Assembly: GCF_900103285.1 (NCBI RefSeq)
Contig: NZ_FNGS01000004.1
Location: 601,960-665,959, forward strand
Direction: 5' to 3'
DNA from: Siphonobacter aquaeclarae
GTDB taxonomy: Bacteria; Bacteroidota; Bacteroidia; Cytophagales; Spirosomataceae
DNA length: 64,000 nt
The notes beneath the pieces were generated by a model. That model saw nothing but the letters and a program-made list of their open reading frames with translations, was not told the DNA's origin and searched no databases. How positions within the stretch are numbered: position 1 is the stretch's first letter; each line of letters starts with the position of its first letter. Below are positions 4,128-53,475 of this stretch, piece by piece. A program made the position numbers and the translations under genes.

Positions 4128-4670
4128 ATGCATATGAAAACGGTACTGCTTATGCTGGGCCTGGCACTGACGTTCCAGGCGCGGGCTCAGCTATTCCTTA
4201 CGCAAACGGGCGAGACCCGTTTCTTCTCCAAAGCTCCGCTGGAAGATATCTCCGCCATCAACAAGAAAACCGGCGCGGTACTCAATACCCAGAACGGCGA
4301 TGTCGTGGTACGTGTCCCTATCACCGAGTTTCAGTTTCCCAACAAACTGATGCAGGAGCACTTCAACGAAAACTACCTGGAATCAGACAAGTTTCCGTAT
4401 GCAATGTTCCGGGGAAAGCTTCAGGACGTGCCGGATCTGAGCAAACCGGGGTCGTATGACGTCTCGGCCAAAGGCAGTTTCGACCTTCACGGCGTAAAAC
4501 TCGACCGGGTACTGAAAGGAAAGCTGGTGGTAGATGGAGAGAAGATTACCCTGACTTCAGAGTTTCAGGTAGCCCTGGTTGATCATAAAATTGATATTCC
4601 GAAGATTGTCTTCCAGAAGATAGCGGAGACGGTGGATGTGCGGAATACGTTTGTTCTGGTGAAAAAATAA
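4128..4670 (+). CDS. YceI family periplasmic protein
   Basis: This 180-residue protein has a signal peptide (MHMKTVLLMLGLALTFQARA) and the YceI lipocalin-like barrel, for example FFSKAPLEDISAINKKTGAV, then FPNKLMQEHFNENYLESDKFPYAMFRG, and FDLHGVKLDRVLKGKL. YceI-like proteins bind isoprenoid or quinone-like lipids. A second ATG at 4134 could also serve as start. It follows the DUF5777 gene with one base between and ends inside the left arm of a perfect 35-bp inverted repeat shared with the convergent cytochrome gene. The pairing with Rieske and cytochrome genes suggests lipid or quinone handling in an envelope redox chain; this is inference. Confidence 0.9.
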   Translation: MHMKTVLLMLGLALTFQARAQLFLTQTGETRFFSKAPLEDISAINKKTGAVLNTQNGDVVVRVPITEFQFPNKLMQEHFNENYLESDKFPYAMFRGKLQDVPDLSKPGSYDVSAKGSFDLHGVKLDRVLKGKLVVDGEKITLTSEFQVALVDHKIDIPKIVFQKIAETVDVRNTFVLVKK

Positions 4671-4748
4671 TTTCTGTGTAGTCTGTGTTTTCTGTGAGAA
4701 ATAAAAAATGTTGCTCACAGAAAACACAGACTACACAGAAATTATTTT
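4664..4748. terminator. 35-bp perfect inverted repeat holding the ends of two convergent genes
   Basis: The left arm is 4664-4698 and the right arm 4714-4748; they are exact reverse complements (35 bases each) around a 15-base A-rich loop. The left arm includes the TAA of the YceI gene (4668-4670). The right arm includes the TAA of the minus-strand cytochrome gene (4742-4744). Each gene is therefore followed by the same sequence, AAAATAATTTCTGTGTAG and onward. It can fold on either transcript and should act as a bidirectional terminator, though there is no long U tract. The arm is far longer than usual intrinsic terminator stems. Confidence 0.85.
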
Positions 4749-5140
4749 CGGGTTAGTTTATACCATTCTACCTTTTCCAATGGCCGGCGGCGCCCGTCAA
4801 ACGGCTGCTTCACCGGGCCATAGTATTTCACGAGGTAATCCAGGACGGTCGGTTCAGAAGGTCCCAGATCCCACAGTTTGTGGTTTTTCTGCATCCACCG
4901 GATTTTCCCGAGCCAGCCTTCCCGCGTGAACTTGTTCTGCAGGATCAGCTTGCTCGAATGGCAGGCCGTACAATGTGCCTTGATCAGCGGAAGGTTGGCA
5001 TCTACGGCCAACCCCGTCTCCGGATCCGTCTTCACCGAATCGGCGATTATCACCGGTCTCCCCTCTGCTCCATGCCCTCTGCCCCCTGCGGCGAGGGATA
5101 GCCCCCCTACCGCCAGCAACGCTGCCATGACATACTTCAT
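4742..5140 (-). CDS. Monoheme cytochrome c, probable partner of the sulfite-oxidase-like enzyme
   Basis: This is a 132-residue exported protein with a signal peptide (MKYVMAALLAVGGLSLA) and one heme c motif, CTACH (Cys57, Cys60, His61). The ATG at 5140 overlaps the stop of the molybdoenzyme gene (ATGA), so translation is coupled and the start is secure. The arrangement matches bacterial sulfite dehydrogenases, in which a Mo subunit passes electrons to a small cytochrome c; the role is inferred from that. The stretch encoding residues 20-27 (GRGHGAEG, bases 5061-5083) is a copy of a repeat word that elsewhere in the window forms an intergenic hairpin. It lies just after the likely signal-peptide cleavage site. 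Confidence 0.88.
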   Translation of the reverse strand: MKYVMAALLAVGGLSLAAGGRGHGAEGRPVIIADSVKTDPETGLAVDANLPLIKAHCTACHSSKLILQNKFTREGWLGKIRWMQKNHKLWDLGPSEPTVLDYLVKYYGPVKQPFDGRRRPLEKVEWYKLTRK

Positions 5141-6513: not shown

Positions 6514-6984
6514 ATGAGAGTAGAAGTTGATCGGATCTCGACCCTGTTGACAGCCGAGTACGGCGGCGAAGCCTGGCACGGCCCGAGTACGCACGAAATC
6601 CTGGAAGAAATCACGCCGGAAGCGGCGGTTTTCCGTCCGTCTCCCCGCGTTCATAACATTGCCGAGCTGGTCGTTCACCTGACCAACTGGCGCATTTTCG
6701 TGCTTGAAAAACTGACGGGCTCCGAGTCATTTGATATTATCCTGAACTCGGAAGCCGACTGGTCGGTCATCGACGAACTCACCCCCGAACGCTGGGCCGA
6801 AATCCAGGAAAACCTGAAGGATACGCAGGATGAACTCCTCGAAACCCTGACGCGGGTGCATACAGCCCGCCTGAGCGAGCCGGTTCCCGGTCGCCGCTAT
6901 AACTATTACACCCTGCTGCACGGCCTGATGCACCACGACATCTACCACAGCGGACAGATTGCGCTTCTGAAGAAAATGCAGTAG
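6514..6984 (+). CDS. DinB family protein (putative metal-dependent hydrolase/transferase)
   Basis: This 156-residue protein is a DinB/YfiT-like four-helix bundle. The likely metal-binding histidines are visible: His47 and His55 in RVHNIAELVVHLTNWR, and the C-terminal block HHDIYHSGQIALLKK (His140-141, His145). Members are thiol-dependent transferases or hydrolases (bacillithiol transferase-like) of unknown substrate. The gene is a single unit, divergent from the sulfite-oxidase-like gene and convergent with the DUF6194 gene; its TAG stop falls in the left arm of a hairpin shared with that gene. Confidence 0.88.
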   Translation: MRVEVDRISTLLTAEYGGEAWHGPSTHEILEEITPEAAVFRPSPRVHNIAELVVHLTNWRIFVLEKLTGSESFDIILNSEADWSVIDELTPERWAEIQENLKDTQDELLETLTRVHTARLSEPVPGRRYNYYTLLHGLMHHDIYHSGQIALLKKMQ

Positions 6985-7041
6985 GGCATTGGGCAAAGGG
7001 CATGGGGTTAGAAGCCCTATACCCTCTGCCCCCCGCCCTAC
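6981..7041. terminator. Convergent-gene hairpin made of gggcatgggg words
   Basis: GTAGGGC (6981-6987) pairs with GCCCTAC (7035-7041). Inside it, the stretch 6988-7007 pairs imperfectly with 7015-7034; 21 of 27 positions match over the arm. The left arm holds the TAG of the DinB gene and the right arm the TAG of the minus-strand DUF6194 gene. The inner words (AAAGGGCATGGGG and ACCCTCTGCCCCC) belong to the same word family as the hairpin at 32482-32524. Confidence 0.65.
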
Positions 7042-7938: not shown

Positions 7939-8002
7939 GGCGGGCAGGCGGGTGTGCTATTGCAACGAAGCGGCGAGCCAGGATACGCACCCGCCCAACC
8001 GT

Positions 8003-8040
8003 AAACTGAAAACTAGAAACCGCAAACTGAATACTCAACT
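8003..8040. repeat. gaaaactg-word repeat at the 3' end of the histidine kinase gene
   Basis: This stretch is composed of the words TAAACTGAAAACTAGAAACCG and CAAACTGAATACTCAACT and runs into the kinase stop codon (8035-8037). The same words (aaactgaaaac, aaccgcaaactg) make the hairpins at 20088-20180 and 53379-53475. Here only one arm is present, so no long stem is formed. Confidence 0.55.
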
Positions 8041-19123: not shown

Positions 19124-20041
19124 TTGACTATCAACCGGAAAAATAGCACCCGACTTCTCTGGATCTTCGTCGTAGCGGCCGTTCTGACCGGCTGTTCCCC
19201 CCGATTGCGCGCGCCGGGCTACGGGTATTGCGAACCGCCGGTCCCGCTGAGCGACCGGTACCAGCCGGTACGGAATACGGACTCGCTGCTGGCCGCCTAC
19301 CCTGCCTTGCAGAAGCAGTTTTCCCGGCATGACCTGCTGGTGGCGAATGCCACCGGCACGCTCGCCCTCCTGGACGATCTCACCCGCACGGGCGATCCCC
19401 GGCAATTCAGGCAGGTACGCGCCGAGCTTATGTCCCGTCTGATACTCGCCGTCAACGAAATCGGCTCGGTATCGGCTGAGCTGGATTGTGAAGGAGAACG
19501 GGCGGATCAGCTCGCCTCCTACCTCGATCGGATCAACGACCGGCGGACCAAGCGCCTGACAGTCGCCTCGATCGTCGCCGGTGCGGTGACTACCCTCCTG
19601 ACCGTTGCCGTTTCCTCTGATCAGGGGCAGAAAATCATCGGGTTTTCGGGAGGGATTGCCAGCGCCGGGCTTGGCGCGCTGACACTGATTCCCGGAAGAA
19701 AAATCCGCCTCGATCACCCGCGTAACCCGCTACGCGATCTCTGGGAAATCCCCGAACGCTCCGCTATCTATTCCCCCTTTATCTGGTATATGCTGACGGA
19801 AGAGAGCTTTTCCAACGATCATACCGGGCTCGCCCGCTCCATCCGGAAACGCTGGGCGGCCTATGAATTTGACGGCACGGGGCAGGCAGGCAGTCTCTTT
19901 TTCGGAAACGGAGGCTGGTACGAAGCCGACGACCTGCATACCCGCGCCAATCTCCTCAACCAGTTACAATCGTCCATTCGCGCCCTGCACCAGGATTTGC
20001 AGAGCCTGATGCTCTCCGTAGCTTCTCTTGGGGAAAAATGA
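19124..20041 (+). CDS. Lipoprotein of unknown function
   Basis: This 305-residue protein has a lipoprotein signal (LLWIFVVAAVLTGC, Cys24) and so is probably an envelope lipoprotein. I do not recognise the family. A helical N-terminal half (about 50-145) is followed by a hydrophobic, glycine-rich hairpin (about 148-190) and an aromatic-rich C-terminal part. The start appears to be TTG at 19124, since no ATG or GTG lies in frame before the signal peptide. Its last six codons and stop (GCT TCT CTT GGG GAA AAA TGA) form the beginning of a perfect 32-bp inverted repeat that continues downstream. Confidence 0.72.
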   Translation: MTINRKNSTRLLWIFVVAAVLTGCSPRLRAPGYGYCEPPVPLSDRYQPVRNTDSLLAAYPALQKQFSRHDLLVANATGTLALLDDLTRTGDPRQFRQVRAELMSRLILAVNEIGSVSAELDCEGERADQLASYLDRINDRRTKRLTVASIVAGAVTTLLTVAVSSDQGQKIIGFSGGIASAGLGALTLIPGRKIRLDHPRNPLRDLWEIPERSAIYSPFIWYMLTEESFSNDHTGLARSIRKRWAAYEFDGTGQAGSLFFGNGGWYEADDLHTRANLLNQLQSSIRALHQDLQSLMLSVASLGEK

Positions 20042-20087
20042 ATGGGCGGCCCTGCGGGCCGCCCATTCATTTTTCCCCAAGAGAAGC
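20021..20087. terminator. 32-bp perfect inverted repeat including the last codons of the lipoprotein gene
   Basis: The left arm 20021-20052 and right arm 20056-20087 are exact reverse complements of 32 bases around a 3-base loop (TGC). The first 21 bases of the left arm are codons 300-305 and the stop of the lipoprotein gene, so the right arm is an inverted copy of the coding 3' end. It can act as a terminator for the plus-strand gene, but it is far longer than needed. Confidence 0.85.
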
Positions 20088-20180
20088 GTTTTCGGTTTAG
20101 TGTTTTCAGTTTCGCACTCATACCGTTTTGCCAATCCCCTTTCTCACTCAACTGAAAACTGTAAACACTAAACCGAAAAC
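20088..20180. terminator. gaaaactg-word hairpin at the 3' end of the S9 peptidase gene
   Basis: GTTTTCGGTTTAGTGTTT (20088-20105) pairs perfectly with 20163-20180 (18 bp). Inside the loop are more of the same words (TTTTCAGTTT, AACTGAAAACTG). It abuts the previous 32-bp palindrome and ends five bases before the minus-strand stop of the peptidase. It is a likely terminator for the peptidase transcript and belongs to the same word family as 8003-8040 and 53379-53475. Confidence 0.75.
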
Positions 20181-29122: not shown

Positions 29123-29203
29123 GATAAAAAATAATTGCTTTTGACAGGAAAGAGACGACGGGAGGCGGGAGTTACCCTTCAATTGAGGCGTTTATTCCAA
29201 TGT

Positions 29204-29285
29204 GCAATAGGCTTTAGGCTGTAAGCTATAAGCCATGCTTACCGGCTGTTGCCTATAGCCTAACGCCTATTGCTTAAAGCCTATC
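29204..29285. repeat. gctttaagcctatagc-word hairpin upstream of kduI
   Basis: GCAATAGGCTTTAGGCT (29204-29220) pairs with AGCCTAACGCCTATTGC (29257-29273), 16 of 17 positions, with further words (GTAAGCTATAAGCC, TTGCTTAAAGCCTAT) in the loop and tail. It lies between divergent genes, the kduI start and the ABC exporter start, so it is not an obvious terminator here. It belongs to the same word family as 35374-35456 and 48324-48437. Confidence 0.7.
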
Positions 29286-29315
29286 CTCCATAGCCACCAA
29301 CGAACCTTTCCGCAT

Positions 29316-32481: not shown

Positions 32482-32524
32482 GCATGGAGCAGAGGGCATG
32501 GGGCGAAAGCCCTCTGCTCCATGC
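32482..32524. terminator. gggcatggagcagaggg-word hairpin after the KDPG aldolase gene
   Basis: GCATGGAGCAGAGGGC (32482-32497) pairs perfectly with GCCCTCTGCTCCATGC (32509-32524), 16 bp with an 11-base loop. More of the word (TCCATGCCCTCTGC) continues to 32538, just short of the minus-strand aldolase stop at 32540. It is a likely terminator for that gene. The same word occurs at 6981-7041 and inside the cytochrome c gene at 5061-5083. Confidence 0.75.
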
Positions 32525-32539
32525 TCCATGCCCTCTGCA

Positions 32540-35284: not shown

Positions 35285-35373
35285 ACGAGTAAGAAGGGGA
35301 CGTTTCCCCCCGGTTTAACGGTGATAATATCCGTAGTTATTAAACGAATTGCAAGGGAAAAAGCGTAGAAAAG

Positions 35374-35456
35374 GCTGTAAGCTTTAAGCCATAGGCTTTA
35401 AGCAGCGGCCCGTATTCATGCTTTTTGCTTAAAGCCTATGGCTTAAAGCTTACAGC
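35374..35456. repeat. 31-bp perfect inverted repeat of gctttaagcctatagc words
   Basis: The left arm 35374-35404 and right arm 35426-35456 are exact reverse complements (31 bases) around a 21-base loop. The arms are made of GCTGTAAGCTTTAAGCC and ATAGGCTTTAAGCA. It lies downstream of the TIM-barrel gene and upstream of the aldo/keto reductase start, next to another perfect palindrome, and belongs to the family seen at 29204 and 48324. Confidence 0.85.
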
Positions 35457-35459
35457 TCT

Positions 35460-35531
35460 CCGTCTGATGATTGGAAAAGCAAAAAGAAGTACCGGAGGGT
35501 ACTTCTTTTTGCTTTTCCAATCATCAGACGG
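35460..35531. terminator. 34-bp perfect inverted repeat including the end of the TIM-barrel gene
   Basis: The left arm 35460-35493 and right arm 35498-35531 are exact reverse complements of 34 bases around a GGAG loop. The right arm contains the stop (35524-35526) and last codons of the minus-strand TIM-barrel gene, and the left arm is its inverted copy. It probably terminates that gene. Confidence 0.85.
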
Positions 35532-36447
35532 TAAAATTATCTGCCCATTTATACGCTTCAATGAGCTTTTTCTCGCCTTCGGCGCCGCTGCCGGAAATAC
35601 CGTGCTCCATGCCGAAGATGAAGTCTTTCTTGGTTTCCTGCATCTTTTTGTAGCAGTGCTTGAAGACGTTCTGGTAGTTGATCTCTCCGGATCCGGGTTC
35701 GCGGCGGCCAGGGTTATCTCCCTGCTGGAAGTAGCCGATTTCACTCCACACCCAATCGATGTGCGGAATGATATGGCCTTCGTTCTTCTGCATGTGGTAG
35801 ATGTCGAACAGGATCTTGCAGGAAGGGCTGTTGACCGCCCGGCAGATTTCGTACGTCTGATCGGACGTGCGGAGGAACAGATTCGGCGAATCGCTCAGCG
35901 GTTCGAGCACCATTACCAGACCCTGAGGCTCGAAAAGCTCGGCGCCGCGGCGGAGCGCGTCGATGACGTGGCCGGTCTGTACGCCGATGGGCAGGTTTCG
36001 CTCGAAATCCCCGGGTACGACCGTGATGAACTTGGCATTGCAGCGTTTGGCGACTTCAATCGCATTCTTCACGCCTTTCAGGAAAATATCGACGTGTTCC
36101 TGCTTGCCCGCAGCAAGGGTATTGGCAGAGTTGCCGCCTTTGTCGAGGACAAACACGCCCATCTGCATACCCAGTTTGGCCATGGTATCGCCGATTTTCT
36201 TCTGTTCTTCGACCGGGCGCCCCGTCATCCCGTTGTCTTCCAGCGCTACAAACCCCTGATCGTGCATGAATTTAAGCTGGTCGACCAGGTCTTTACCCCC
36301 CAGGTTCTGGAACATACCGAAGTGCGGGGCATACTTGAGTTTGAAGGTTTGTTTCGGAGCGGCGGCAGACGAGACTTCTGACAGTCCGCCTATCGTAGAG
36401 GCACCGGCGGTAGCCGCCAGGTTTTTCACAAAGGTTCGACGTTGCAT
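35524..36447 (-). CDS. Exported sugar isomerase/epimerase-like TIM-barrel protein
   Basis: This 307-residue protein has a twin-arginine-like signal (MQRRTFVKNLAATAGAS, then to about residue 29), indicating a folded exported protein. The mature part is a xylose-isomerase-like TIM barrel of the hydroxypyruvate isomerase type: LKYAPHFGMF, GLVMVLEPLSDSPNLFLR (metal-ligand Glu), CKILFDIYHMQKNEGH (Asp and His), and FGMEHGISGSG (late Glu). Such enzymes use a divalent metal. The substrate is unknown; its location next to the uronate genes suggests a keto- or uronic sugar. Confidence 0.88.
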   Translation of the reverse strand: MQRRTFVKNLAATAGASTIGGLSEVSSAAAPKQTFKLKYAPHFGMFQNLGGKDLVDQLKFMHDQGFVALEDNGMTGRPVEEQKKIGDTMAKLGMQMGVFVLDKGGNSANTLAAGKQEHVDIFLKGVKNAIEVAKRCNAKFITVVPGDFERNLPIGVQTGHVIDALRRGAELFEPQGLVMVLEPLSDSPNLFLRTSDQTYEICRAVNSPSCKILFDIYHMQKNEGHIIPHIDWVWSEIGYFQQGDNPGRREPGSGEINYQNVFKHCYKKMQETKKDFIFGMEHGISGSGAEGEKKLIEAYKWADNFTV

Positions 36448-42446: not shown

Positions 42447-43832
42447 ATGAACTTTCGGCCGATCGGCATCCTTCCGTTTTTGATCCCGGTGCTATGGCTG
42501 GGATACAAATGGATACTTTTCAGGGACGGAGTATATGCCGTTGACGTGCATGCTCATACCCAGCTTTGTATCTCCTGGCTCGACGGGCGACCGTTTCTGA
42601 CTGACACTGTTTACGGGAATCATTTTCTGCTTCATAATTATTTCCTGAATCCGCTGCTGGCGCCGTTTGTATATGGCGCGGGTTCGCTCGGTCTGTTCGG
42701 ATTGCATACGGTCCTGTGTCTGGTTGCGCTGTTTCTCTGGCGGCAGGATCTGGCCGGAAGAGGGGGCAGGACCTGGCTGGCGGTCTCTGCGCTGCTGGTG
42801 GGTCCGCTCGGCTACTGGGTTTTCTGCGATCTGACGCAGGGCTGGCATGTCGAACTCCTCTATCTCCCGCTGGCGGCGTGTTGGGCCAGTGCCTGGCACA
42901 GGCGCTCGTCGGCAGGCCTGTTTGCGGCCACGCTGGCTATTGCACTGGTGAAGGAAAATGCGCCGGTTCTGCTTTGCGCGCTGTTTCTTTTCGCTTCTTT
43001 TCCGGACAAAGACCGGTCGTCGCTGATCCGAAATCTCGCTACCCGATCCAATGGGTGGATCCTTCTGGCTTTCACGCTGTTGTTTGCCGCCGGTCTGATC
43101 TGGCTTTCCGCCCTGAATGGCTGGGGGCACAGCCGGCTGGGTCTTGCGATACAGGCCGTGAGACGGCACCCGGAGGCGCTCGGGTCTTACCTGATCCGGA
43201 GCCTGACCGGTAATCTGGCCATTCTGGCGGGCGGGCTGGTTCCTTTTCTGTTGCTGGCGATTTCAACGACCCGAAAAAAGCAGTACCTGCTGCTGGTCAC
43301 GCTGCTGGCGTTGCCGCTGATCCTCTCCAATATCGTTGAAGGTCTCGCTTACTACCCCTACAGCCGGAATGCGTTCGGTTTTCCGCCGAGAACGGCCTTT
43401 TTGTGGGGTTTTCTGGCTCCGGCGCATTTTCTGGCGGCGGCGAGGTATGGTTATGACCTGAAATTCCGGTTTCCGTTTCCTGCGACAACCGTGGTCCAGC
43501 TGGCCGCGCTCGCTGTCATTGCCGAGCCGCGTATCTGGCCGGTTCTGACGGGTTTGTATCCCCGGTATGCCTTATCAAAGGAGCAGGAATCGGCATTGGA
43601 AGCGGCCAGCCGGTCGTTGCCCTCCCATTCGGAAGTGATCTGTGACCTGCGTGTTCTGCCTTTTTTTCACCAACACTATGTCAGCGCGCTGACGGATACG
43701 CTCCAAACCGACCGGCAGCCGGATTTATGGGTCTATTCAGAAAAATCCACCGGAAACCCCTGCAAGAACCAGCAAAAATACCAGCAGATTCAGGCGAATG
43801 GTCTGGTATTTCTCTGGAAAAAGCGGAAATGA
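42447..43832 (+). CDS. Polytopic membrane protein, DUF2079-like
   Basis: This 461-residue integral membrane protein has about nine to ten helices. A periplasmic loop after helix 1 (DVHAHTQLCISWLDGRPFLT, then YGNHFLLHNYFLNPLLAPF) and the motif TQGWHVELLYLPLAACWA resemble DUF2079 and other GT-C-fold membrane proteins. There is an Arg/Asp-poor loop region near the C-terminus. It has no adjacent partner, starts 69 bases after the SMR gene and is followed by a NamZ-like gene 40 bases later. The upstream gap holds a short direct repeat, TATCTTTCGGTAATAC and TATCTTCCGGTAATCC. Substrate unknown. Confidence 0.72.
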   Translation: MNFRPIGILPFLIPVLWLGYKWILFRDGVYAVDVHAHTQLCISWLDGRPFLTDTVYGNHFLLHNYFLNPLLAPFVYGAGSLGLFGLHTVLCLVALFLWRQDLAGRGGRTWLAVSALLVGPLGYWVFCDLTQGWHVELLYLPLAACWASAWHRRSSAGLFAATLAIALVKENAPVLLCALFLFASFPDKDRSSLIRNLATRSNGWILLAFTLLFAAGLIWLSALNGWGHSRLGLAIQAVRRHPEALGSYLIRSLTGNLAILAGGLVPFLLLAISTTRKKQYLLLVTLLALPLILSNIVEGLAYYPYSRNAFGFPPRTAFLWGFLAPAHFLAAARYGYDLKFRFPFPATTVVQLAALAVIAEPRIWPVLTGLYPRYALSKEQESALEAASRSLPSHSEVICDLRVLPFFHQHYVSALTDTLQTDRQPDLWVYSEKSTGNPCKNQQKYQQIQANGLVFLWKKRK

Positions 43833-47445: not shown

Positions 47446-48321
47446 ATGAGACCCCTAACCGGATTGCTACTCCTGACCGGCCTTGCCCTTACTTCCTGCT
47501 CCAAGTCCGGCGACGACGTCTCCGCCGTTGTCAAATTCTCCGAACTGGCCAAGTCTGTCAAGGAAAGCGACGGGCAGGTATCCCTCGGCGTATCGCTCGG
47601 ATCGGTGACGACGGAGGACGTTGTCCTGCAGTTTTCCGTCACCGGAACTGCCGTCCTGAACGGCGATTATATCATGCAAACCACGACGGATTCCACCCTG
47701 ACGATTCCCAAAGGCTCCTCTTCTTCGAATATTGTCCTGAAACTGATCAACGACAAGGCCATCGAAAGTACCAAAACCATTGAAATAACCCTGAAAGCCA
47801 TCAGCTCCGGCCATACCCTGAGTACCAACGCGCTGGACCTGACGGGTACTATTTCGGTGGAAGACGACGATACCGCGCCGACCGACGGTATTCAGGTAGA
47901 CCTTACCTGGGACAAAGGTTCAAAGGCAGAAATGGACCTGTACCTCCTCACGGGTGTGGAATTCGACGCCGACGGCAATATCCTCAATGCCGACCAGACC
48001 AATTCACTATCGAGTGTAAACGAGGAAGGCTTCCAGACGGTCAGCCTGCCGTCGTCGGCCCCGGACGGCTCTTACTATGTCGTGGTTGAGTATTACCAGG
48101 GTAACCGGGACATCAACTACGTCGTCAATATCAATGGTGCTTCCTATACCAATGTAAGCGGCGGCGGCAGCTTCACCAGCTCGCAGGTCGGCTACTATAC
48201 CTACCGGAACAGCGCGATTGTGAAGAGCGGATCGGCCTACACGCTCGATGCGGGCGGTACCTCCCGCGTACTCGGCAAACGGGTACGGCAGTTGTTGAAG
48301 GTAACGAGGAAGGAGCTGTAA
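47446..48321 (+). CDS. Lipoprotein with Calx-beta-like domain
   Basis: This 291-residue lipoprotein has the signal MRPLTGLLLLTGLALTSC (Cys18). Residues 25-140 form a Calx-beta-like unit: VKFSELAKSVKESDGQVSLG, LQFSVTGTAVLNGDYIM, and TLTIPKGSSSSNIVLKLIND ending in SVEDDD. These bind calcium in relatives. The rest is a beta-rich domain (IQVDLTWDKGSKAEMDLYLL, SAPDGSYYVVVEYYQGN) like those in surface proteins with GEVED-type repeats. It may be a surface lipoprotein; the ligand is unknown. It ends before a strong terminator and repeat-word hairpin. Confidence 0.8.
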   Translation: MRPLTGLLLLTGLALTSCSKSGDDVSAVVKFSELAKSVKESDGQVSLGVSLGSVTTEDVVLQFSVTGTAVLNGDYIMQTTTDSTLTIPKGSSSSNIVLKLINDKAIESTKTIEITLKAISSGHTLSTNALDLTGTISVEDDDTAPTDGIQVDLTWDKGSKAEMDLYLLTGVEFDADGNILNADQTNSLSSVNEEGFQTVSLPSSAPDGSYYVVVEYYQGNRDINYVVNINGASYTNVSGGGSFTSSQVGYYTYRNSAIVKSGSAYTLDAGGTSRVLGKRVRQLLKVTRKEL

Positions 48322-48323
48322 GG

Positions 48324-48437
48324 GCTTTAAGCAGTAAGCTATAGGCTTTAGGCTTTAGGCTCAGGGCCGCGAGCCATAAGCTTACTGCCTATAGCTTACT
48401 GCCTATAGCTTACTGCTTATAGCTTACTGCTTAAAGC
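48324..48437. repeat. gctttaagcctatagc-word hairpin with 14-base tandem repeats
   Basis: GCTTTAAGCAGTAAGCTATA (48324-48343) is an exact reverse complement of 48418-48437. Between them, 48376-48432 is a tandem array of one 15-base and three 14-base units (ATAGCTTACTGCCT and ATAGCTTACTGCTT). It begins two bases after the stop of the Calx-beta lipoprotein gene. It belongs to the word family seen at 29204 and 35374. Confidence 0.85.
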
Positions 48438-48449
48438 TCCCGTGACTTA

Positions 48450-48500
48450 AAAAAGCCAAAAGCCCGGCAGGCATAGTGCCTGCCGGGCTTTTGGCTTTTT
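48450..48500 (+). terminator. Strong intrinsic terminator before the cbb3 operon
   Basis: The 24-base arm 48450-48473 pairs perfectly with 48477-48500 around a TAG loop. The stem base is AAAAAGCC/GGCTTTTT, giving a U tract of five, and imperfect GTGAC/GTCAC flanks extend it. It separates the lipoprotein transcript from ccoS. Confidence 0.9.
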
Positions 48501-51135: not shown

Positions 51136-51164
51136 TACCCAGGGTCCCCTAACTGTTTCTTACC

Positions 51165-53378: not shown

Positions 53379-53475
53379 GCGGTTTTCGGTTTACTGTTTT
53401 CCGTTTTCAGTTAAAGCGTCCGAAAACTGAAAACCGCAAACTGAAAACTGATTTTCCTAACCTGAAAACTGATTT
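53379..53475. repeat. gaaaactg-word repeat between ccoG and ccoH
   Basis: The spacer is made of GCGGTTTTCGGTTTACTG, then CCGTTTTCAG, and the inverse words CGAAAACTGAAAACCGC, then two copies of CTGAAAACTGATTTTCC separated by TAAC. The two halves are imperfect inverse copies. It begins directly after the ccoG stop and ends three bases before the ccoH start, so it is inside an operon. It belongs to the word family found at 8003 and 20088. Confidence 0.75.

Follow-up and report, generated by a model that had tools for sequence, protein, structure and literature searches.

The inverted repeat at 35374–35456 lies in a 64-kb stretch of DNA, here called the window, which covers bases 601960–665959 of contig C12 of the Siphonobacter aquaeclarae genome (6.19 Mb, 98.7% complete) and has a G+C content of 55%. 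A repeat search of the window recovered the two arms as a perfect 31-bp inverted repeat with 100% complementarity and a 21-nt spacer, in agreement with the preliminary description. It was found that the arms consist of tandem heptads of the form GCNNTAR (vocabulary A), and that the same words occur in other orders at 29204–29280 and 48324–48437, where such a relationship had been described for 29204–29285 and 48324–48437. The spacers and flanks of the three loci had nothing in common except the words; words are common to them, not one palindrome. The two-word heptad pattern GCNNTARGCNNTARGC had 23 matches in the window, all within these three loci (0.01 expected), and GCTTTAAGCNNTAAGC occurred 44 times in the genome (control, 0). 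No Rfam match above the gathering score was obtained in the 64-kb window, blastn of 35300–35560 against plasmids gave no match, and neither did a scan of the exact 35374 arm against public genome contigs.

The repeat at 35374–35456 belongs to a class of facing heptad arrays that lie between genes throughout the genome; the arrays in the window are collected in Table 1. The lone arm at 5067–5089 reads as ...AAGGRGHGAEGR..., and four congeners differ in sequence there. Terminator-like palindromes with perfect or near-perfect arms of 24–38 bp, not built of heptads, were also observed at gene ends (4664–4748, 20021–20087, 35460–35531 and 48450–48500), and the one at 35460–35531 overlaps the stop codon of the gene 35524–36447 (−).

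Table 1. Heptad arms and adjoining palindromes, in window coordinates
Feature	Positions	Strand	Remarks
Lone arm, D	5067–5089	−	Inside coding sequence, just 3′ of predicted signal-peptide start
Left arm, D-like	6985–7007	+	Immediately 3′ of stop codon of gene 6514–6984 (+); by eye
Right arm, D-like	7015–7040	−	By eye
Lone arm, B	7997–8013	−	Right-hand ORF border of convergent pair
Left arm, B (GTTTWYN)	20088–20112	+	Below strict pattern
Right arm, B	20145–20180	−	
Left arm, A	29204–29233	+	Between divergent genes (KduI-like / ABC transporter)
Right arm, A	29251–29280	−	Word order unmirrored
Left arm, D (GCATGGR/GCAGAGG)	32482–32504	+	
Right arm, D	32509–32538	−	
Left arm, A	35374–35404	+	GCTGTAA GCTTTAA GCCATAG GCTTTAA GC
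Spacer between arms	35405–35425		21 nt
Right arm, A	35426–35456	−	Four words of left arm mirrored exactly (minority case)
Palindrome	35460–35531		Separate; perfect, 34 bp; A/T-rich outer stem; intrinsic-terminator-like
Left arm, A	48324–48360	+	Immediately 3′ of stop codon of gene 47446–48321 (+)
Right arm, A	48380–48437	−	Partly 14-nt repeat (GCAGTAA GCTATAR)
Palindrome	48450–48500		Separate; 24 bp; intrinsic-terminator-like; past the 48324 array
Left arm, B	53382–53412	+	
Right arm, B	53425–53451	−	Below strict pattern

Seven-base register and vocabularies

The contig analysis covered 714 kb of C12 (concatenated, with a 1,959-base gap). When stretches with at least 20/28 matches at a given lag were merged into regions, 67 regions were obtained at lag 7 and 43 at lag 14, with 0–6 at each of the other lags from 4 to 13; period 7 and its double are the sole strongly enriched periods on this contig. 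Two-word pairs were found 80 times at spacing 7 and never at spacing 5, 6, 8 or 9. Four strict patterns were used, A (GCNNTAR), B (GTTTWYN), C (GTTTRRR) and D (GC[AC][ATG]RRR), which gave 114, 106, 25 and 18 matches on the contig and 0, 0, 0 and 1 on the reversed contig, respectively. Because the patterns were written after inspection of the sequence, it is the reversed-contig control, and not the count alone, that carries weight. With these patterns 111 arms in 57 loci were obtained. In the whole genome the three-word GCNNTAR pattern had 461 matches, and the pattern read backwards had 0. With this many loci and intergenic enrichment, the word family proposed in the preliminary description is real, rather than being limited to three loci or lacking enrichment between genes. 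The shared vocabulary in varying order, dispersed between genes, was as described there; the strict 7-nt register, the fixed opposite polarity of the arms and the three further vocabularies with the same layout were absent from that description.

When the middle word of vocabulary A was left unconstrained, 84, 80, 79 and 83 of the 85 words carried G, C, T and A at positions 1, 2, 5 and 6, respectively, while positions 3 and 4 were mixed and position 7 was mixed but mostly purine. Identical neighbouring words were rarer than expected from a within-arm shuffle (2 vs 8.1, P = 0.0024), and words two apart were alike more often (11 vs 6.1, P = 0.016); neither effect was found for vocabulary B by the same shuffle. 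The backwards control pattern (CGRATNN words) had dozens of matches in G064, G062, G076 and G080 (e.g. 67 + 34 in G064), which suggests that still other heptad vocabularies exist in a few other genomes.

Arm polarity, gene borders and the stem

It was observed that a plus arm is followed by a minus arm. Within 250 bp, the 57 contig loci held 44 adjacent (+,−) pairs and 5 (−,+) neighbours, and the latter were all inside four loci built of repeated +,− units. The vocabulary was the same in 43/44 facing pairs, compared with 0.33 by chance. In 85/111 arms the words pointed away from whichever ORF border was nearer, and the same was true of 13/15 arms that had no strict-pattern partner in the spacer (P = 0.007), some of which have a weaker partner below the pattern, e.g. 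20088–20112 and 53425–53451 in the window. Because of this direction away from the adjacent ORF, a spacer with arrays at both ends has a plus array and then a minus array, which face each other and can form a hairpin. The outer border was a stop codon for 71/111 arms and a start codon for 40/111. Nested layers were found at contig 691841/692346, with outer B and inner C words on both sides.

By our own simple codon-usage gene caller, 0/57 loci had their midpoint inside a called gene; one (5067–5089) falls within coding sequence when relatives are used to place the gene start. Convergent spacers held 19/57 loci vs 7.9 expected by spacer length, divergent spacers 3/57 vs 14.2, and tandem spacers 35/57 vs 34.9 (chi-square P = 5e-6 for the three classes together). 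In the 35 tandem spacers, the median gap was 7 bp between the upstream stop codon and the locus, and 44 bp between the locus and the following start.

The RNA of 35370–35460 folded with −58.4 kcal/mol, a z of −10.9 vs 200 dinucleotide shuffles, and the z values of 29200–29289 and 48320–48441 against such shuffles were −5.8 and −6.6, respectively. All five loci that were folded were far more stable than their shuffles (z of −3.5 to −10.9), and with such stability the hairpins may have a structural function. The main rival to the reading developed below is that hairpins are selected at 3′ ends, where an RNA stem-loop would terminate transcription or shield the upstream mRNA from 3′ exonucleases, as REP/BIME elements do. 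The preference for convergent and avoidance of divergent spacers, the closeness of tandem loci to the upstream stop and the stable folds all favour it. Furthermore, D arrays lie at two orthologous 3′ ends where congeners carry terminator-like hairpins: the spacer orthologous to 32482 has a terminator-like hairpin and no D array in five congeners, and that orthologous to ∼6985 has terminator-like hairpins in four (both by eye).

However, the arms showed no covariation. The free-position identity at the best offset was 0.642 for real A partners vs 0.636 for swapped ones (20 pairs), a measure in which partial mirroring, such as that of the three outermost words at 48324, is diluted. A permutation of duplex energies suffers less from this dilution and gave P = 0.07 for A (20 pairs) and 0.11 for B (15 pairs). 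Exact mirroring was found at 35374 and contig 156096, and an arm's own partner ranked first at 35374 and at contig 88490, 156096, 131484 and 275183. Word order is usually unmirrored between arms, and the perfect stem at 35374 is an exception. The arm-swap tests rejected the perfect stem as the conserved unit, mirrored pairs being a minority. The hairpin put forward earlier as the unit of the family was not borne out, as own arms on average matched no better than those of other loci and 13/15 partnerless arms keep their polarity. It also speaks against selected hairpins that a start codon is the outer border of 40/111 arms, that a stem requires neither a 7-nt period nor a vocabulary, and that purging of arrays from promoters would yield the same placement.

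Intrinsic terminators were not consistently absent beside arrays, which is a further point against this rival. They were found in 8/33 tandem spacers with arrays vs 58/158 without, and in 20/33 convergent spacers with arrays vs 21/49 without. A simple replacement of terminators by arrays was rejected, since it has two orthologous examples but the contig-wide count disagrees. The repeat at 35374–35456 is followed by TCTCCGTC on the plus strand and CTTTTCTAC on the minus strand, with no clear U-tract as an intrinsic terminator has. The label 'terminator-like' therefore held as to the position at gene 3′ ends, but not as to the 35374 repeat itself, which lacks a clear U-tract and is adjoined by the separate terminator-like palindrome at 35460–35531. 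Overall, selection for 3′-end hairpins is considered rather unlikely as the reason why the arrays are kept.

Orthologous sites in congeners and candidate origins

Blocks syntenic with the window were found in the congeners. Vocabulary A, with 461 three-word matches here, had 0 in five congeners, while vocabulary B was found in 6/6 genomes of the genus and 22/99 relatives. The A array at 29204 is extra DNA compared with the congeners, two of which (G001 and G004) have GTTTAGG/CCCAAAA arrays at another place in that spacer. At the 35374 site, the two flanking genes are separated in five congeners by a gene resembling Y-family DNA polymerases, at the counterpart of window 35285–35523 (L065, 4591–5883; the G004 copy matches Pfam IMS); the gene is missing there in this genome, and this difference beside the array is one case.

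In a comparison of the congeners G003 and G005, 9 of the 12 lag-7 regions of G003 could be anchored, and 4/9 had another vocabulary in the same place in G005 as judged by eye (42646, 51139, 91859 and 93913 in the reversed block of L111–L116); the remaining anchored regions were alike, weak or lost. At 51139, GTTTTGA/GTTTAGG-like words were present in G001, G002, G003 and G004, CAGTTTTCTG-like words were present on both sides in G005, and no array was found in this genome by orthologous comparison. At 42646, no array was found in G001, G004 or this genome. Arrays of G004 and G001 differ by whole heptads, with a (TGAAAAC) run of ∼14 vs 2 copies, and one word was gained or lost at two other sites. 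Nested layers with outer B and inner C words on both sides were seen in G004 as well. With A absent from the five congeners and orthologous sites empty or of another vocabulary, arrays have been gained or replaced, in line with the mobile or recombining family suggested earlier.

We tentatively favour an origin by copying at the DNA level in a 7-nt register, which may well have made the arrays and renew them, the hairpin being mainly a by-product. It is favoured because it accounts for the polarity, the single vocabulary of each pair, the heptad-sized changes, the layers and the switching. Slippage would make or renew arrays, as would template switches from one existing array to another via the conserved core. 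When a spacer is broken or re-copied, both 3′ ends would gain words of a single vocabulary and then be joined again. Perfectly mirrored pairs such as 35374 could arise by fold-back copying on occasion. Most arrays would persist at the 3′ ends of genes, since they would do no harm at that position, and the RNA hairpin may cap or weakly terminate transcripts. Nevertheless, DNA-level copying alone does not explain why the unit is seven, and it can account for the avoidance of identical neighbours only through later deletion; in vocabulary A this avoidance is the opposite of fresh slippage and requires a later loss of identical neighbours. Three-word strings common to distant A loci were not in excess in this genome (2 vs 1.35 by chance), and copying between arrays is therefore not seen directly here. 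No break, join or donor was observed for the copying of arrays.

Two relatives of the same family, G041 and G056, gave a different picture, which looks like MITE transposition and is against the copying account. A single word string recurs 22 times in G041 and 20 times in G056, and most of the 30 copies retrieved were embedded in a longer conserved element with partly conserved ends, so that in that genus the heptads appear to travel inside a MITE-like repeat. This dispersed, MITE-like element (L122–L151) is ∼170–190 bp long and has heptad arms, a left end like TTAAGTATTAATGC and a right end like TTTTGCCCACTAACTTA. Ten array sites were mapped between G041 and G056, one of which was a chance match in a gene, and an insertion polymorphism of 316 vs 39 nt was found at G041 C4 near 227 kb. 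The longer element, this polymorphism and the extra DNA at 29204 would fit non-autonomous mobile elements (MITE- or REP-like) that are moved by a transposase in trans. Against this, the A loci of the window have only words in common, and the sharing of strings between distant loci is at chance level. A MITE is recognized by fixed terminal inverted repeats and a target duplication; no such duplication was apparent at the three A loci of the window.

The preliminary description had also pointed to a REP-type TnpA. This genome has 1 Y1_Tnp gene, and no array was found within its 3.3-kb RAYT (Y1_Tnp) locus. Over 99 genomes, the copy number of REP transposases was related to arrays at most weakly (A, rho 0.22, P = 0.03; B, rho −0.04), and within the family rho was −0.03 for A + B arrays. 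The proposed link was not supported, and a REP/RAYT origin was found to be weak when tested, with a single Y1_Tnp, no array in its locus and at most a weak relation of copy number to arrays; the accompanying statement that the elements are unlike ordinary REP copies stands, as the three A loci have words in common rather than one palindrome and no clear RAYT link was seen. Transposition appears to be real in G041/G056 and is not visible in this genome, for which we regard mobile elements as an improbable source of the arrays.

Substitutions in G041/G056 arrays were no less frequent at core positions than at the free pair (by eye, few events), which favours words fixed when they were made rather than constantly selected. 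This bears on the idea that a family of DNA- or RNA-binding proteins recognizes the arrays as sites with 7-nt spacing, an idea consistent with the conserved core with its free two-base gap, with the avoidance of identical neighbours and with the S1, Csp or Csr proteins that MacGregor (2015, PMC4679880) proposes for TAACTGA repeats. But no core constraint was visible in those few G041/G056 changes judged by eye, and at least 4 unrelated cores occur under one grammar in one genome and switch at orthologous sites, which makes binding sites a very doubtful explanation.

It might also be imagined that a reverse transcriptase writes the repeats on an RNA template, as DRT10 or telomerase does, because the arms look as if 3′ ends had been extended from either side (the strand whose words contain G enters the spacer in the 5′-to-3′ direction, as in fused telomeres), and DRT10 is reported to make tandem-repeat DNA (PMC12632851). 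However, DRT10 is described there as copying one template precisely (9 nt in Eco3), whereas the words here are degenerate and always 7 nt. No RVT_1 match was found in this genome (98.7% complete assembly), while three control genomes were positive. Without an RVT_1 gene, writing by reverse transcriptase was rejected and is largely refuted for this genome; it would be extremely improbable. Both this and binding sites are less likely than DNA-level copying or selected hairpins.

A Ku gene (PF02735) was found in this genome (G000:C14:133242–133775). Ku was found in 0/5 congeners, in 3/4 tested members of one distant array-bearing genus, and not in G041, G056, G057, G055, G040 or G042. As G041 and G056 are array-rich yet carry no Ku, Ku end joining is not required and was ruled out as a requirement.

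Known heptad repeats and wider distribution

Facing heptad pairs as a kind are already known, from Xanthomonas. Heterogeneous (GGGANTN)n / GGGAATC heptamers of Xanthomonas and GGGGA(C/T)T of Nostoc are described by Rehm et al. (2015, PMC4692102), who also cite the idea of polymerase slippage. By their account, 89–93% of the xanthomonad heptads are intergenic, 70–75 convergent inverted pairs occur per Xanthomonas genome, fewer heptads lie between divergent ORFs, and array length varies between relatives. The arrays studied here are similar in their degenerate 7-base units, facing pairs, orientation to the ORF and avoidance of divergent spacers (PMC4692102). Xanthomonas is depicted in the same source with a single G-quadruplex-forming vocabulary per genome and with 83% of repeats in the same place in a relative (PMC4692102). 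In contrast, several vocabularies occur in one genome here, mostly not of the G-run type (the words of vocabulary A have no run of three G, and those of D can carry one), and orthologous sites change vocabulary.

TAACTGA direct repeats are presented by MacGregor (2015, PMC4679880) as intergenic heptamer arrays, some of them in Bacteroidetes with other heptamers mixed in, that show 7-nt indels between relatives; in marine Beggiatoaceae most are described as direct repeats that share one orientation and immediately precede start codons. The present arrays are likewise intergenic heptamers, and reverse-complemented B words (AACTGAA) resemble TAACTGA; they differ in their facing pairs, their other words and their position mostly at 3′ ends (stop codon border for 71/111 arms). 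Cyanobacterial short tandemly repeated repetitive (STRR) sequences have heptanucleotide units and several vocabularies per genome, and we know of no facing-pair grammar for them. Heptanucleotide units and several vocabularies are shared with STRR by description; Calothrix heptanucleotides are mentioned by Rehm et al. (PMC4692102). REP sequences are given as conserved palindromes of 20–40 nt tagged with GTAG or CGTC (PMC3733652). The present arrays are, like REP/BIME, intergenic, palindromic and dispersed, but unlike them are built of words in strict 7-nt register, are not defined by one conserved palindrome and show no clear RAYT link. Being tandem 7-base units and mostly intergenic, they belong with the bacterial heptameric tandem repeats of Rehm, MacGregor and the STRR. 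In the open-licence literature searched, no account was found of a genome with several vocabularies under one grammar, or of orthologous sites that exchange vocabularies; therefore, the variant is new within a known kind.

Many bacteria have an excess of heptameric repeats, for which there is no accepted cause. Any explanation is constrained by what was found in this genome and its congeners: the strict 7-nt register, a core with free positions, words directed outward from ORFs, the lack of a reverse transcriptase, one vocabulary per facing pair with several per genome, and exchange in place between species. The congeners are thus a ready comparative system for how 7-base words arise and why bacterial spacers turn over. 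We can imagine, as a speculation with a small chance of being right, that facing arrays are scars of a general bacterial rewriting of spacers, in which a break is followed by extension of both 3′ ends inward from the ORF borders, with 7-base words of the one vocabulary then current, and rejoining. If true, entire spacers would be renewed and both arms of a site would switch vocabulary in one step, which would explain the fixed polarity, the single vocabulary per pair, the unmirrored order, the nested layers and the switching, and also the same grammar in distant phyla.

In the same family, three-word matches of vocabulary A numbered 175 in G041, 195 in G056, 49 in G057, 24 in G055 and 21 in G040; at least one match was found in 24/99 relatives and in 34/296 genomes drawn from the phylum. 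A degenerate three-word scan of public genomes was also made. At ∼31 bits over 257 Gb, many of its single matches must be chance, and the rows kept and read by eye were those that had several matches or in which an opposite arm was present. Because they were chosen for several matches, these loci show existence, not frequency. Among the matches listed, GCNNTAR loci with the plus-then-minus layout were found in Flavobacterium tructae (L213) and Cellulophaga sp. BC115SP (L166), further plus-then-minus loci in MAGs of Patescibacteria (L230), Acidimicrobiia (L229) and Halomonas (L208), and the same layout in the IMG/VR contigs L285, L286, L305, L312 and L326. In the Halomonas MAG locus, (AGCGGTA)n passes into (AACGGTA)n within one run, followed by a facing GCTTAAAGC / GCTCGTG array.
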